Shown here: piece by piece, positions 22,707-28,019 of the stretch | Layout: every line of letters starts with the position of its first letter | Position numbering within the stretch: the first letter of the stretch is position 1 | DNA from: Parasphingorhabdus flavimaris | Lineage (GTDB): Bacteria > Pseudomonadota > Alphaproteobacteria > Sphingomonadales > Sphingomonadaceae | Assembly (NCBI RefSeq): GCF_013371215.1 | Contig: NZ_JABWMH010000003.1 | Coordinates: forward strand, 558,001 to 622,000 | Reading direction: 5' to 3' | Length of the DNA: 64,000 nucleotides | Made by a program: the position numbers and the translations under genes | Notes under the pieces: generated by a model | The model's database searches: none | What the model was told of the DNA's origin: nothing | Seen by the model: the letters and a program-made list of their open reading frames with translations, nothing else

Positions 22707-23114
22707 TTATTCCGGTGTCGCGGCCTGTGCATTTTGTCCGTCACCTTCCGGTGCGGCGATGATGTCGCGCGTTACGCTGCCCTTGTCGACGGTGAATGTT
22801 TCCGGATCACCCACCGAGGAGCGAATGCCTGCTTCGGAGCTGCCAGCCTGGCCGACAATCGCCGATTCGGTGACGCTGCGTGCTTGCGGTCCGCCGAACA
22901 GGGCTTCCAGAGTCTGCTGCTGCAAACCACCGGTCTGCGGACGAGGCTGACCGGGCTGAGGCGGGGTCAGCGTGAAATCGGGCGGGATGACCAGCGGAGG
23001 CTGGCGCGAAACCGCGAATTCATCGGGCCGTTCGCGGTCGAACAGGCCGCTGGAACCACAAGCCGTCAGGCTGGCCAGCGAAACAAGGCTGATGGCGACG
23101 GTCGATTTACGCAT
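22707..23114 (-). CDS. DUF3035 domain lipoprotein
   Basis: 135 residues from the inner Met at 23112-23114. The signal ends in a lipobox (SLASLTACGSSG). After it, RERPDEFAVSRQPPLVIPPD is the DUF3035 signature, followed by a Pro/Gln-rich stretch. The family is restricted largely to alphaproteobacteria and sits next to lspA-ileS, as here. Envelope lipoprotein of unknown role. Last gene of the minus-strand run beginning at purE. Confidence 0.9.
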   Translation of the reverse strand: MRKSTVAISLVSLASLTACGSSGLFDRERPDEFAVSRQPPLVIPPDFTLTPPQPGQPRPQTGGLQQQTLEALFGGPQARSVTESAIVGQAGSSEAGIRSSVGDPETFTVDKGSVTRDIIAAPEGDGQNAQAATPE

Positions 23115-23169
23115 GTTATTGTCCCTCAAAAATCTCTTACGGAGCCTGATAGCGCGCTCCTGTCACAGG

Positions 23170-23697
23170 TCAACTTTCGTCAAGCTGAACATGGTCTTTT
23201 GTCTCGTCCGTCTTTTCGCGGATTAACAGCGCCCGCGCAAGCAGGATTACCACGCCGATGCTGATCGATGCGTCGGCGAGGTTGAATATCAGGAACGGAC
23301 GGAATTCACCGATGTGCAGATCGGCAAAGTCGGCGACATAGCCGAGCCGCGCGCGGTCGACGATATTGCCCATTGCCCCTCCCAGCACCATGCCGAGCGC
23401 GATAATGTCCCACTTGGCCTTTTCCTTGTTCATCCAGACCCACACCGCGATCCCGATCAGTCCGGTCAGCGTGACCAGAGCCCAGCGCTGAAAATCGGTC
23501 GAGGCGGTGAGAAAACCCATCGAAACCCCGTAATTTTCCGCCCAGGTCAGGTTGAAGAACGGGATCAGCTCGATCTGGCCCTTGGTCGGCAGCTGGAGCA
23601 GCTGCATCACGACAAATTTGCTCGCCTGATCGATGAAGAAGATCATGAAGGCGATGATCAGGCCGGTGCGGCGGTATTTCTTGATGGGGTCGGTCAT
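23170..23697 (-). CDS. lspA: Prolipoprotein signal peptidase
   Basis: 175 residues from ATG 23697 (MTDPIKKYRRTG). Four membrane helices. The two catalytic aspartates are visible in GGAMGNIVDRARLGYVADFA and FNLADASISIGV. Cleaves diacylglyceryl-prolipoproteins at the +1 Cys in the inner membrane. It lies downstream of ileS as in many bacteria, but a palindromic repeat separates the two here. An upstream in-frame Met would add 23 residues, including repeat-derived sequence, so it is unlikely to be the true start. Confidence 0.95.
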   Translation of the reverse strand: MTDPIKKYRRTGLIIAFMIFFIDQASKFVVMQLLQLPTKGQIELIPFFNLTWAENYGVSMGFLTASTDFQRWALVTLTGLIGIAVWVWMNKEKAKWDIIALGMVLGGAMGNIVDRARLGYVADFADLHIGEFRPFLIFNLADASISIGVVILLARALLIREKTDETKDHVQLDES

Positions 23698-23761
23698 ATC
23701 AAATTCCGTTCCAAACAGCGCCACGGCGAGACAAAAAGTCGTCATTGTGAGGCAAGGCGTC

Positions 23762-23839
23762 GTCATCCTGAACTCGTTTCAGGACCCCGGCGGGCTTGGT
23801 GCTCTGTTGAGAGAGATCCTGAAACAAGTTCAGGATGAC
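23762..23839. repeat. REP-like palindromic repeat between ileS and lspA
   Basis: GTCATCCTGAACTCGTTTCA (from 23762) is complementary, with a few mismatches, to TGAAACAAGTTCAGGATGAC ending at 23839. The arms enclose about 35 bp. The arms are a very common dispersed repeat in sphingomonads and other proteobacteria. A separate small hairpin, AATGAGTG-CCTGT-CACTCATT (23841-23861), abuts it and overlaps the ileS stop codon. The element sits inside what is normally a tight ileS-lspA unit. Confidence 0.8.
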
Positions 23840-23859
23840 GAATGAGTGCCTGTCACTCA

Positions 23860-26757
23860 TTACGCCAAAACCTCCGCACAACGCCCGCAAAGCGCGCCGT
23901 CTTCTTCCACTTCCGGCAGCAACCGCCAGCAGCGGCCGCATTTGTGATTGTCGGTTTTGGTGACGGCAATCGCATCGCCATCACTGACGTCCGCGACAAT
24001 CGCGAGCTCGGCGAATTCTTCGGTGCTGATCGGCAGGTCGGTCATCGGATAGACGACTTCGGCTTCCAGACTGGAACGAATGGTTTTTTCCCGCCGCAGC
24101 GGTTCAATCGCCTCGGTCACCTTCTCGCGGGCATCGCGGATGGTCTGCCATTTGCCCGCCAGATCGTCATCCAGCCACCCGGCATCAACCTCGGGCCATA
24201 TCTTCAAATGGATCGAGTTATTCTCATCCGGGAACCGGCTCTGCCAGATTTCCTCGGCGGTAAACACCAGTACCGGTGCAATATAGCGGGTCAGCGCGTG
24301 GAACAATATGTCCATCACCGTCCGATAGGCCATGCGCTTCGGATCATCCTGCGCGTCGCAATAGAGGCAATCCTTGCGGATATCGAAGAAGAAGGCGCTG
24401 AGATCTTCCTGCGCAAAGGCGTTCAGCGTCCGCATATAGGGACCGAAGGCAAAATCATTCACATGTTGCTTCAGCTCGGCGTCGACCTCGGCCAGCCGGT
24501 GCAGGATATAGCGTTCCAGCTCCGGCATGTCTGCCACCGCGACCCGCTCGGCATCGGTGAAATCACCCAAGCCGCCCAGCATATAGCGGAAGGTGTTTCG
24601 CAGCTTCCGGTAACTGTCCGAAACCCCTTTCAGGATTTCATCACCGATCCGGTGATCCTCGGTAAAATCGACGCTCGCCGCCCACAGCCGCAATATGTCC
24701 GCGCCCTGCACGTCGATGATCTTCTTCGGATCAAGCGTGTTGCCGAGCGACTTCGACATTTTCTTGCCGCTCTTGTCGAGCGTCATCCCGTGGGTGAGCA
24801 CCGCCTTGTAGGGCGCCCGCCCCCGCGTGCCGCAGGACTCCAGCAGGCTCGACTGGAACCAGCCGCGATGCTGGTCGCTGCCTTCCAGATAGAGATCCGC
24901 CGGCGACTGCTGGTCCGGCCATTTGCCGCTTTCCAGCACGAAGGCATGGGTGCAGCCGCTGTCGAACCAGACGTCGAGAATATCGGTGATCACCTCATAA
25001 TCGTCGAGCGCATGGTCGTTGCCGAGAAAATCCTGATGATCGGCATTGAACCAGGCATCGGCTCCGCCAGCCTTGAACGCTTCGATAATCCGCGCATTGA
25101 CCGCCGGATCGTTGAGATATTCGCCACTCTTGCGATTCACATAAAGCGCAATCGGCACGCCCCAGGCCCGCTGGCGCGACAGCACCCAGTCGGGGCGGCC
25201 TTCCACCATCGATTCGAGCCGGCGACTCCCGCGTTCCGGCACAAAGCGCACCTTGTTGCGGATTTCGTCCAGCGCAACATCGCGGAGGGTGGCCCCTCCA
25301 CCATGCTGCGCATGGTCCCCCTCCCCGTCGCTGCGCGCCAGGGAGGATGCTTCCCCTTTTCCTCCCTGCGCCAAAGGCGTGGGGAGGGGGACCGCCGAAG
25401 GCGGTGGAGGGGCCGTGAGCGGCGCATCCATCGGCACAAACCATTGCGGCGTGCAGCGATAGATGATCTTCGCCTTCGACCGCCAGCTGTGCGGATAGCT
25501 ATGGGTAAAATCGGCGCTCGCCGAAAGCAGCGCCCCCGCCTCGCGCAGGTCCGAACAGATCGGGCCTTGCGGGCCGTTGAAATTCTTGTTGATCACCCCG
25601 CCGGCGCGCTCGTCGCCGCGCGGCAGCCATTCCCAGTCTTCGCGATAGACGCCATCGGCATCGACCGCGAACACCGGATTAATGCCATTGGCCTTGCACA
25701 GGTCAAAATCATCCTCGCCATGATCGGGCGACATATGGACGAGGCCAGTGCCCGCATCGGTGGTGACAAAATGCGAACCGTCGAGGAACGGGCGCGGCTT
25801 GGTGTAGAATTCGCTGTCGGGAAACTTGTCGGCCATTGGGTGTTTGGCGGTGGCATCCTGCAAAACGGAGCCTTTAAATGCGCGGATAGTATCCTGCCCG
25901 GCAAAAGCGGCAATCACTTTAGCTCGTTCAACTGACAGAACGTATCGGCGTCCATCTGCATGTTCAAATATTCCGTATTCAACATCCGCCCCATAAGCGA
26001 GCGCCTGATTGACCGGAATAGTCCACGGCGTGGTCGTCCAGATCACCGCATGGGCGCCAACCAACTCCGGCGCATTCGGCGCGTCGACAATCTCGAACGC
26101 CACATCAATCTGGGTCGAGACAATATCCTCATATTCCACCTCGGCCTCGGCCAGAGCGGTCTTCTCGACCGGCGACCACATCACCGGCTTGGCACCGCGA
26201 TAGAGCCGGCCCGCCTCGGCGAATTTCAGCAGCTCGGCAACAATCGCTGCCTCGGCGTCATAGTCCATCGTCAGATAGGGCTTGTCCCACTGGCCCATCA
26301 CGCCAAGGCGCTTGAATTCCTCGCGTTGCACATTGACCCACTGGTCGGCATAGGTCCGGCATTCAGCGCGGAATTCGCTGGCCGGAACCTCGTCTTTGTT
26401 GCGCTTCTTCTTGCGATATTGTTCCTCGATCTTCCATTCGATCGGCAGGCCATGACAATCCCAGCCGGGCACATAGGGCGCGTCCTTGCCGAGCAGAGAC
26501 TGCGAGCGCACCACCAGATCCTTCAGCGTCTTGTTGAGGCTGTGGCCGATATGGATATTGCCATTGGCATAAGGCGGGCCGTCATGCAGAATGAATTTCT
26601 CGCGACCGGCGCGGGCTTCGCGCAGCTTTTCATAGAGACCGATCTTCTGCCAGCGCTCCAATATCGCCGGTTCCTTTTGGGCAAGGCCGGCTTTCATCGG
26701 GAAATCGGTTTTCGGCAGGAAAACCGTGTCTTTATAATCTGCTTTGGGATCGGTCAT
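23860..26757 (-). CDS. ileS: Isoleucyl-tRNA synthetase carrying an in-frame insertion
   Basis: 965 residues from ATG 26757. Class I motifs are intact: HIGH at about 69-72 within NGNIHIGHSLNK, the KMSKS loop at about 664-668, and C-terminal zinc cysteines in CGRCWRLLPEVEEDGALCGRC. The editing CP1 domain lies between. Charges tRNA-Ile and proofreads valine. Odd feature: residues about 448-490, between WFVPMDAPL and LRDVALDEI, are a Pro/Gly/Ala-rich stretch encoded by a palindromic repeat; without it the length would be about 923. The gene is probably functional because the insertion keeps the frame and every motif survives. Upstream is ribF, downstream lspA. Confidence 0.97.
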   Translation of the reverse strand: MTDPKADYKDTVFLPKTDFPMKAGLAQKEPAILERWQKIGLYEKLREARAGREKFILHDGPPYANGNIHIGHSLNKTLKDLVVRSQSLLGKDAPYVPGWDCHGLPIEWKIEEQYRKKKRNKDEVPASEFRAECRTYADQWVNVQREEFKRLGVMGQWDKPYLTMDYDAEAAIVAELLKFAEAGRLYRGAKPVMWSPVEKTALAEAEVEYEDIVSTQIDVAFEIVDAPNAPELVGAHAVIWTTTPWTIPVNQALAYGADVEYGIFEHADGRRYVLSVERAKVIAAFAGQDTIRAFKGSVLQDATAKHPMADKFPDSEFYTKPRPFLDGSHFVTTDAGTGLVHMSPDHGEDDFDLCKANGINPVFAVDADGVYREDWEWLPRGDERAGGVINKNFNGPQGPICSDLREAGALLSASADFTHSYPHSWRSKAKIIYRCTPQWFVPMDAPLTAPPPPSAVPLPTPLAQGGKGEASSLARSDGEGDHAQHGGGATLRDVALDEIRNKVRFVPERGSRRLESMVEGRPDWVLSRQRAWGVPIALYVNRKSGEYLNDPAVNARIIEAFKAGGADAWFNADHQDFLGNDHALDDYEVITDILDVWFDSGCTHAFVLESGKWPDQQSPADLYLEGSDQHRGWFQSSLLESCGTRGRAPYKAVLTHGMTLDKSGKKMSKSLGNTLDPKKIIDVQGADILRLWAASVDFTEDHRIGDEILKGVSDSYRKLRNTFRYMLGGLGDFTDAERVAVADMPELERYILHRLAEVDAELKQHVNDFAFGPYMRTLNAFAQEDLSAFFFDIRKDCLYCDAQDDPKRMAYRTVMDILFHALTRYIAPVLVFTAEEIWQSRFPDENNSIHLKIWPEVDAGWLDDDLAGKWQTIRDAREKVTEAIEPLRREKTIRSSLEAEVVYPMTDLPISTEEFAELAIVADVSDGDAIAVTKTDNHKCGRCWRLLPEVEEDGALCGRCAEVLA
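25291..25414. repeat. Palindromic element inserted in frame within ileS
   Basis: A 124-bp inverted repeat. GGCCCCTCCACC (25291-25302) matches GGTGGAGGGGCC (25403-25414), and GGTCCCCCTCCCC (25314-25326) matches GGGGAGGGGGACC (25381-25393). Each arm has its own small hairpin (ACCATG-CTGCG-CATGGT and ACCGCC-GAA-GGCGGT) and a further stem lies at the centre. The result is a cruciform or cloverleaf-like fold. It encodes a low-complexity peptide (for example VPLPTPLAQGGKGEASSLA) with no stop codon in the ileS frame. Confidence 0.85.
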
Positions 26758-26834
26758 GATCGCGGGGATTAGGGGAGGCGGGGCTTGGGTGCAAGCGGGA
26801 TTTGTGCCACGCGAGAGCCACGCGATTTGCTCGT

Positions 26835-26908
26835 CATTGCGAGGGCTGGAAGCCCGTGGCAATCCAGTGCGGCGAGCGGCCCTGGATTGCTTCGCTTCGC
26901 TCGCAATG
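26835..26908. repeat. Palindromic repeat (CATTGCGAG type) upstream of ileS
   Basis: CATTGCGAG (26835-26843) pairs with CTCGCAATG (26900-26908), and GGCAATCCAG (26858-26867) pairs with CTGGATTGC (26882-26890). A 14-bp GC-rich loop lies between. This is a widespread alphaproteobacterial dispersed repeat. It is in the ribF-ileS gap, 27 bp before another element. Confidence 0.75.
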
Positions 26909-26935
26909 TCGTACAGGGCTGCTTAAACTCCTGCA

Positions 26936-27008
26936 TCCGTTAGCCCTGAGCTTGTCGAAGGGCGCTTTCCGACGAGAGGCGTGGTTCGACAAGCTCACCA
27001 CTAACGGA
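26936..27008. repeat. Palindromic repeat (GAGCTTGTCGAA type) between ribF and ileS
   Basis: TCCGTTAG (26936-26943) and CTAACGGA (27001-27008) are the outer arms. Inside them GAGCTTGTCGAA pairs with TTCGACAAGCTC. The core is one of the most frequent dispersed repeats of sphingomonads. It ends 20 bp after the ribF stop, so it may act as an mRNA 3' end or processing site. Confidence 0.8.
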
Positions 27009-27028
27009 TACGCTCTAACGGATAATCC

Positions 27029-27952
27029 TCAGGCCAGCAATTCCCGCGCCCGGTCGCAATCCTTCTCCATCTGCACCTTCAGCGCATCGAGATCATCGAA
27101 CTTCTCTTCCCCCCGCAGGAAATGGTGCAATTCGACCTCGATGGTCTGGCCGTAAAGATCCTCGCTGAAATCGAAGAAATAGGGCTCGAGCAATTCCTTC
27201 GGCGGATCAAAGCTCGGGCGGATCCCCAGATTGGCCGCGCCGTTCAGAACCCGCCCGTCGGGCAGGCGGCCCTTGACCGCGTAGATGCCATATTTGGGCC
27301 GCAGATAATGGCTCATGTCGACATTGGCGGTCGGATAGCCGAGCAGCCGGCCGTTCTTGTCACCGTGAATGACCTCGCCCTGTATGGTGAACGGGCGAGT
27401 GAGCAGGCGGCGTGCTTCTTCGCAAAGGCCTTCTTTCAACGCTTTGCGGATGCGGCTGGAGGAGATGACATCATCGCTGTCGCTGATCGCGCTGACCGCT
27501 TCGCTCTTCAGCCCGCGCGCCGCGCCGACTTCGCGCAGCACATCGATATTGCCTTTCGCGCCCTTGCCGAAAGTGAAATCAGCGCCGGTAACCACGCCCG
27601 CCGCGCCAAAACGCTCGACCAGCAGCTTGGCGACAAAATCCTCTGCCGTTGTTGCGGCCAGTCCGGCGTCAAATTCGAAGACCAGCATCGCGCTGGCCCC
27701 GGCATCGGCAAACAATCGCTGGCGCTGGTCAAGCGACGTCAGCCGGAACGGCGCGACATCGGGCTTGAAGAATCGCACCGGATGCGGATCGAATGTCGCG
27801 ATAATAGTCGGGCGGCCCTCTTCCCGGGCCCAGCTCAGCGCCTTGCCGGCCACCGCCTGATGGCCGAAATGAAAGCCGTCAAAATTGCCCAGCGCAATGA
27901 TCGCGCCGCGCAGGTCGCCCTCGATCCGCTCTTTTCCGTTCAGTCTTATCAT
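27029..27952 (-). CDS. ribF: Bifunctional riboflavin kinase / FAD synthetase
   Basis: 307 residues. The N-terminal FAD synthetase domain has ALGNFDGFHFGHQAV (nucleotidyltransferase HxGH-like motif) and ATFDPHPVRFFKP. The C-terminal riboflavin kinase domain starts near residue 180 with RRLLTRPFTIQGEVIHGDKN, then GRLLGYPTANVDM and LRGEEKFDDLDALKVQM. Converts riboflavin to FMN and FAD in the cytoplasm. Order ribF-ileS-lspA is conserved; here two palindromic repeats separate ribF from ileS. Confidence 0.97.
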   Translation of the reverse strand: MIRLNGKERIEGDLRGAIIALGNFDGFHFGHQAVAGKALSWAREEGRPTIIATFDPHPVRFFKPDVAPFRLTSLDQRQRLFADAGASAMLVFEFDAGLAATTAEDFVAKLLVERFGAAGVVTGADFTFGKGAKGNIDVLREVGAARGLKSEAVSAISDSDDVISSSRIRKALKEGLCEEARRLLTRPFTIQGEVIHGDKNGRLLGYPTANVDMSHYLRPKYGIYAVKGRLPDGRVLNGAANLGIRPSFDPPKELLEPYFFDFSEDLYGQTIEVELHHFLRGEEKFDDLDALKVQMEKDCDRARELLA

Positions 27953-27993
27953 CGAATCGCTATTGCGGGATTTTGCATTTCATTCAACAAATT

Positions 27994-28019
27994 CGTCATG
28001 CCAGCGCGGGCGGGCATCT
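27994..28019. repeat. Half REP-like element next to the dipeptidase stop
   Basis: CGTCATGCCAGCGCGGGCGG (from 27994) has an inner dyad (GCCAGCGC and GCGGGCGGGC) and resembles the GTCATGCCAGCG repeat arms common in alphaproteobacteria. It abuts the dipeptidase stop codon. A related-looking arm, CCCCAGCCTTGGCTGGAG, lies inside the gene's last codons at about 28060-28077. Confidence 0.45.

Follow-up and report, generated by a model that had tools for sequence, protein, structure and literature searches.

The essential ileS gene of Parasphingorhabdus flavimaris, which encodes isoleucyl-tRNA synthetase, carries a 124-nucleotide (nt) palindrome inserted in frame, and this insert belongs to a clade-specific family of composite palindromes, with stems that covary from copy to copy. 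The stretch analyzed, referred to here as the window, comprises 64,000 nt of contig NZ_JABWMH010000003.1 (positions 558,001 to 622,000, forward strand); positions are given in window numbering, and IleS residues in the 970-residue frame read from 26772 unless stated. With a probability that we put at about 0.6, the insert represents a gene-less end from a family of palindromes of which the gene-bearing form encodes a DUF559 (Vsr-like) nuclease, and it is the nucleic acid of the insert that is kept.

The Palindrome within ileS

The outer arms of the insert, 25291-25302 and 25403-25414, show 100% complementarity over their 12 nt, and more arms are nested inside. The segment 25285-25420 folds as RNA of the coding strand with -92.2 kcal/mol (z -6.6) and as DNA of the plus strand with z -6.7, and in neither case did any of 200 shuffled sequences equal the value. 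The IleS protein carrying the insert retains the HIGH and KMSKS motifs and two CGRC motifs, and in this copy of the palindrome all six reading frames are open. A first-pass annotation made from the letters had described a 124-bp inverted repeat with nested hairpins lying in frame and without a stop, and both descriptions are borne out. It had further proposed a mobile palindrome tolerated in a surface loop; dispersal and in-frame tolerance hold, whereas the surface position is a prediction from alignments. With IleRS structure 8c9e, the nearest solved, the alignment runs to its residue 414 and resumes at 426, with residues 448-504 of the present protein between, and the site is predicted to be a surface loop. 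The residues assigned to the element become 448-489 if numbered from the ATG at 26757. A search of window positions 23000-28000 against Rfam gave no family at the gathering score and four sub-threshold matches, which were taken as chance.

A Family of Composite Palindromes

The composite element consists of two inverted half units of ~53 nt with two hairpins each, in which a first hairpin, CCTCC...GGGGAGG, is followed by a second ending in GGAGGGG; the CCTCC and GGAGGG ends are fixed by the search pattern used to collect the copies. Across 27 copies the stem tips covary, with 44 double-change cells compared with a shuffled mean of 16.8 and none of 500 shuffles equal. Of 34 half units, 29 have T.G pairs at stem positions 6-8, where A.C is absent on that strand; the half unit as written folds better than its complementary strand. 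Two subtypes are distinguished by their ends. Subtype A (21 of the 34, both ileS halves included) ends in GGTGGAGGG and is without the CGTC tag at that place, and subtype B (12 of the 34) ends in GACGGAGGG, which puts CGTC beside the second hairpin on the opposite strand.

Searched with a covariance model at E < 1e-6, the 3.35-Mb genome yields 40 half units, in agreement with the earlier view of a dispersed palindrome; the ileS copy is the only one in the window. By position, the 40 form 19 inverted pairs and two singles (38/40 paired), so that the search for further copies proposed with the first-pass annotation yields 21 elements. Sixteen pairs are oriented +/-, with the first hairpin outward, and three are -/+, these being the ileS copy and the two pairs that flank a DUF559 gene. 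Six elements lie in frame within conserved genes, namely ileS, truB, glyS (a single half unit) and dnaE2 at three places; by inspection, with neighbors incompletely annotated, none of the remaining 15 was seen inside a conserved protein. The assignments TruB, DNA polymerase III alpha, GlyS beta, DUF559 and Y1_Tnp are those of Pfam, and purL, lspA and the "2" of dnaE2 are names that we take to apply, having recognized them from the sequence. Among 17 pairs examined, 3 to 6 of the 6 frames are open per copy, and the shuffled means are 2.1 to 4.4. The half units of the family are too similar for the source of the ileS copy among the genomic copies to be assigned. The AAAAC present on both sides of dnaE2 site 3 in genome G000 was considered as a target-site duplication and dropped, being absent from G014 and G007.

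Table 1. Coordinates of ileS and of the parts of its palindrome in the window
Feature	Position	Strand	Evidence or remark
ileS, isoleucyl-tRNA synthetase, ATG to stop	23860..26757	-	Frame open through palindrome
Composite palindrome, in frame, ~42 residues encoded (453-494 of 970-residue frame)	25291..25414		Arms, fold, reading frame
Half unit 1, two hairpins	25294..25346	-	Covariance-model match, 72.7 bits
Half unit 2, two hairpins	25361..25411	+	Covariance-model match, 63.2 bits; -/+ order with half unit 1, as on each side of DUF559 gene
Spacer between half units, 14 nt	25347..25360		Sequence

DUF559 Genes Bracketed by Palindromes

The same genome contains a DUF559 gene downstream of purL (C5:132000-132317) that is bracketed by a -/+ pair of half units on each side, and the dispersed palindromes share their ends with this gene-bearing element. 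Its product matches Pfam PF04480 with 101.4 bits (cut-off 20.6), and in an alignment of 48 DUF559 cores columns D82, D103, H107 and R119 are conserved in 100% and E45 and E101 in 98%. At this purL-linked location (location 1) the order half(-), half(+), gene, half(-), half(+) was found in all eight loci fetched, and half-unit variants flank DUF559 at two more locations, L296 and, in another family of the order, L298. Elsewhere, and in further genera of the order, ends of other CCTCYCC-type palindromes of comparable build enclose many DUF559 genes.

The association was scored from the inverted repeats between the 250-nt flanks of each gene, with a threshold score of 40. At least 40 is reached at 37 of 52 DUF559 loci versus 0 of 360 random placements, which fall mainly in coding DNA. 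The 52 loci represent 17 separate locations, with at least one locus reaching the threshold at 11 of them, and are those scored among 57 fetched from a larger number of matches (L263, L269, L270, L271 and L273, with no frame, were dropped). In a control with real neighboring genes, 5 of 265 reach at least 40; from their loci and sequences three of the five (L253, L257 and L288) read as antisense DUF559 frames and L327 as a DUF559 gene that the motif failed to pick up, and L290 is the gene next to a purL-linked DUF559. A second sample, from other genera of the order, gave at least 40 at 13 of 22 loci (L382 was dropped from 23) and at none of 167 placements and none of 17 neighboring genes.

The site downstream of purL was read in 21 genomes. 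Eight have the DUF559 element, ten have no palindrome by eye, G008 has a seemingly decayed palindrome from which the gene is absent, and in G001 and G004 (L337 and L341) the place of the element is taken by another small gene or gene pair, which gives the impression of a possible toxin-antitoxin pair. Relative to purL (L331-L340), the direction of DUF559 is the same in G000, G002, G007, G010 and G014 and opposite in G003, G005 and G015, as if the gene had been inverted between its flanking repeats. Several of the DUF559 reading frames appear to extend into the flanking palindromes.

The Same Loops in Related Genomes

A search for IleS in 60 genomes led to 30 fetched loci, 28 of which, including that of P. 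flavimaris, have a readable loop. In 13 of the 28 the fold z of the loop is at most -3.4, and by inspection at least four palindrome families are represented: six of the 13 belong to the family found in the window and seven to others (GAGCTTGTCGAA or TCGACTTCGC types, CCCCTCCC types and a GTCATCCCAGCG type). The other 15 loops are non-palindromic, so that 22 of the 28 genomes are without the window's family in that loop. The comparison with relatives suggested at first pass therefore finds the insert missing from most of them, and the five relatives that share its peptide have near-identical palindromic DNA and not a divergent, non-palindromic equivalent. Within the named set, L061 (Sphingorhabdus sp. 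109) has the same insert as the window, L069 holds a different palindrome (z -6.4), and the inserts of L067 (z -3.2) and L074 (z -1.4) resemble other repeats. The loops of truB (19 genomes) and of dnaE2 (three sites in 16 genomes) follow the pattern of ileS, and when the five loops are taken together z is -3 or lower in 48 of 95, one dnaE2 insert (G005, site 1) including a run of unread bases. By the covariance model, the window's family is present in 20 of the 60 genomes and in 14 of the 32 within the genus, the own genome being counted. In relatives, these loops are occupied by other palindrome families, by apparent remnants or by nothing, so that a few loops are used repeatedly by different families. 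The ends of DUF559 elements are matched by 36 of 87 loop sequences, at values of 42-119; the other 51 are at 35 or below, and the shuffled maximum is 34.

Further repeats and variable stretches were noted in and around these genes. An inverted repeat with 25-nt arms (96%), TCGTCATCCTGAAC...GTTCAGGATGACGA, occupies window positions 23760-23841 and adjoins the 3' end of ileS; by eye, the same type is also in frame in truB of G015, G014, G010 and G001. Two further inverted repeats lie upstream of ileS (26935-27009 and 26859-26890), and one of them is of the GAGCTTGTCGAA type that relatives carry in frame in the ileS loop. At a second ileS site, after SIHLKEWP, L144 (G028) and L158 (G015) have a palindromic in-frame insert (z -3.1 and -4.3), and most other genomes read have a short stretch. 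Residues ~270-298 of IleS are strongly length-variable within the genus (L141-L169) and, where read, do not form a palindrome (18 genomes with a value, lowest z -2.7). Short in-frame stretches resembling palindrome remnants with the middle deleted occur in G020 (truB loop) and in G007 (dnaE2 site 2), and in G010 (C1:1936106-1936660) half units recur every 208 bases, which suggests a tandem array.

Divergence inside the Inserts

Over the six genomes that share the ileS insert, the synonymous difference (pS) is 0.026 within it versus 0.359 in the rest of the gene; the 60-codon flanks have pS of 0.326 and 0.395, and the same kinds of codons elsewhere in ileS have 0.321. Of 901 other windows of the insert's length along the gene, none has so low a pS. 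The nonsynonymous difference (pN) of the insert, 0.049, is not below its pS. As controls, two ileS loops that are not palindromic gave pS of 0.44 and 0.51, similar to the remainder of the gene. Among nine in-gene palindromes, from three genes and several families, pS is 0.000-0.174 inside versus 0.18-0.56 in the flanks and is lower than both flanks in 9/9, in groups that were selected for sharing a family at the site, that overlap in genomes and are thus non-independent, and three of which are single genome pairs. In seven of the nine, pN is about equal to or above pS, and in two truB comparisons with other families it is below. Inserts outside ileS vary, with pN up to 0.16. The low pS inside the inserts points to the nucleic acid being kept, or being slowed in its change by repair, rather than the peptide. 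Among the six ileS copies, paired stem changes number two pairs, a count reached by 66 of 500 shuffles and so not above them, and the variable columns comprise 6 of 24 unpaired and 9 of 100 paired positions (p ~0.04).

Relation to Known Palindromic Elements

In-frame insertion of palindromes into conserved genes is a known kind of event, and work already in print covers sphingomonads, so that the first-pass remark that such insertions are little described in this group is not supported. The available text of Di Nocera et al. (2013; PMC3733652) describes GTAG/CGTC repetitive extragenic palindromes (REPs) as often inverted dimers, mostly intergenic, with some in frame in genes; it names REP-bearing tRNA synthetase and truB genes for the sphingomonads S. 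alaskensis and E. litoralis, mentions REPs in DnaE2 genes with the species unnamed, and reports insertion at the same site for recB of two Xanthomonas species and at different sites for other genes. As far as that text describes them, these REPs resemble the present family in inverted pairing (38/40 half units here) and in having in-frame copies in the same kinds of gene, and the subtype B half units (12/34) have a CGTC beside the second hairpin, on the opposite strand. The present half unit differs in being larger and built of two hairpins, in lacking the tag at that place in the subtype A units that form the ileS copy, and in being linked by position to DUF559 and not to a Y1 transposase; here, moreover, several families reuse the same loops within one genus.

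Rickettsia palindromic elements, described in PMC2229807 as 105-146 bp long and fused in frame in unrelated conserved proteins, are comparable in size to the 124 nt found here and likewise have both intergenic and in-frame copies, a likeness in description; RPE-1 is given for truB of R. conorii (PMC3733652). They differ in host lineage and from the half-unit architecture found here. REPtrons, in which PMC3733652 and PMC8266576 place TnpA-REP (REP-associated tyrosine transposase, RAYT) genes between flanking REPs, have in common with the present system a gene flanked by palindromes that are dispersed elsewhere; the gene here encodes a DUF559 nuclease-type protein and not a Y1 transposase. Caulobacter VsrA, which has the same DUF559 domain, is presented in the text of PMC12907096 as a mismatch-repair endonuclease by prediction and a possible cause of DNA damage, and the string "palindrom" does not occur in that text. 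In the literature searched, whose coverage leaves out most subscription journals, we found no link of DUF559 to palindromes (one DUF559 paper mentions CRISPR), no reuse of loops by different families in one genus, and no low synonymous difference inside in-gene palindromes.

Origin and Maintenance of the Insert

In the reading that we prefer, the dispersed palindromes would be gene-less relatives of the DUF559-bearing element, similar to REPs or to miniature inverted-repeat transposable elements. One copy would have entered ileS in the ancestor of a sub-clade and would have survived there because its frames are open (6/6), it is in a fitting phase and extra residues are tolerated in the loop. 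A cognate protein would recognize the hairpin, and the nucleic acid of the insert, not its peptide, would be retained. From its position alone, DUF559 may be what moves or maintains the palindromes.

Several observations weigh against this reading. In the three truB comparisons, windows elsewhere as low in pS as the insert number 9/248, 33/225 and 33/288, and at dnaE2 site 1 they number 18/1103. No consistent target-site duplication was found at the dnaE2 and truB sites, where close empty sites are few, and no transposition or excision product was seen. In a class-wide sample (29 of 30 loci, L327 being dropped) the link to palindromes is weak, with flank scores of at least 40 at 3/29 DUF559 loci and at least 36 at 7/29, and the second DUF559 gene of the P. 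flavimaris genome (L266) scores 24. Among the 48 loops whose fold z is at most -3, 15 have no match to DUF559 ends (GAGCTTGTCGAA, GTCATCCTGAAC and other types), and G008 (82% complete) and G011 have in-gene inserts that match such ends, yet no DUF559 match was found in either. On the DUF559 tree, 8 of 9 multi-member locations each form one group, two of them weakly supported, so that the gene looks stable, as do RAYT genes, which are usually single-copy and vertically inherited, and recent hopping is unsupported.

Some alternatives concern the insert itself. Chance self-complementarity of GC-rich coding sequence has a practically negligible probability in view of the fold (z -6.6), the 40 related half units in the genome and the covariation. 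Co-option of the insert as an mRNA or protein feature, retained regardless of its mobile origin, would fit a sequence that is near-invariant over six genomes (mean nucleotide difference 5.1%) next to flanks with synonymous differences of 33% and 40%. However, the lowering of pS below both flanks in all nine in-gene palindromes looks like a trait of palindromes and not of ileS, close relatives are without the insert in the same loop, pN in the insert is not lower than pS, and paired stem changes among the ileS copies are few; we regard co-option as quite improbable. The low divergence might also be a purely mutational effect in which the arms correct each other with a bias to G.C, the palindrome being preserved without selection. 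The mostly G.C stems, the relation of pN to pS in seven of the nine inserts and the preference of variable ileS columns for unpaired positions are all consistent with such correction, but unbiased correction would, by reasoning, leave divergence between species unslowed, so that a strong bias must be assumed, and pN falls below pS in the two truB comparisons with other families. This explanation seems to us somewhat unlikely.

Other alternatives concern the agent of dispersal. DUF559 could be a passenger, or a homing-type nuclease gene that settles in existing palindromes as safe sites, something else spreading the palindromes. Vsr-fold homing nucleases exist, the grouping of most DUF559 locations on the tree looks like vertical inheritance, as for a site-specific settler, and the varying orientation relative to purL fits a gene between inverted repeats. 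The tight and symmetrical placement of DUF559 within half units in 8/8 loci, the same build in other families, and the several frames that seem to run into the flanking palindromes speak against a passenger, and we consider it rather unlikely. It is unlikely, too, that a Y1 transposase of the IS200/TnpA-REP type moves the palindromes as REP-like elements, although the genome has one 181-residue Y1_Tnp gene and a fragment, and the T.G pairs at positions 6-8, the better folding of that strand and the CGTC of subtype B are REP-like traits: no half-unit match up to E 1e-4 lies near Y1_Tnp at either locus (L242 and L243), and the 21 subtype A half units, both ileS ones among them, are without CGTC at that place. 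The DUF559 interpretation can also be taken further, to a REPtron-like system of its own in which DUF559 and CCTCYCC-type palindromes belong together: a Vsr-type nuclease would recognize the T.G hairpin, spread the palindrome and preserve it by C.G-biased mismatch repair even within essential genes, the ileS insert being a solo end. We put this extended form forward tentatively, as doubtful.

In-frame palindromes in conserved genes have been catalogued since the Rickettsia work, among them families with no known transposase. One small nuclease family, bracketed by palindromes far above control within one order, provides a testable candidate for what moves or keeps such palindromes. The loops of IleS, TruB and DnaE2 that different families use repeatedly are natural permissive sites, and the low synonymous change inside coding palindromes, unlike the usual evolution of codons, calls for a cause at the level of DNA or RNA.

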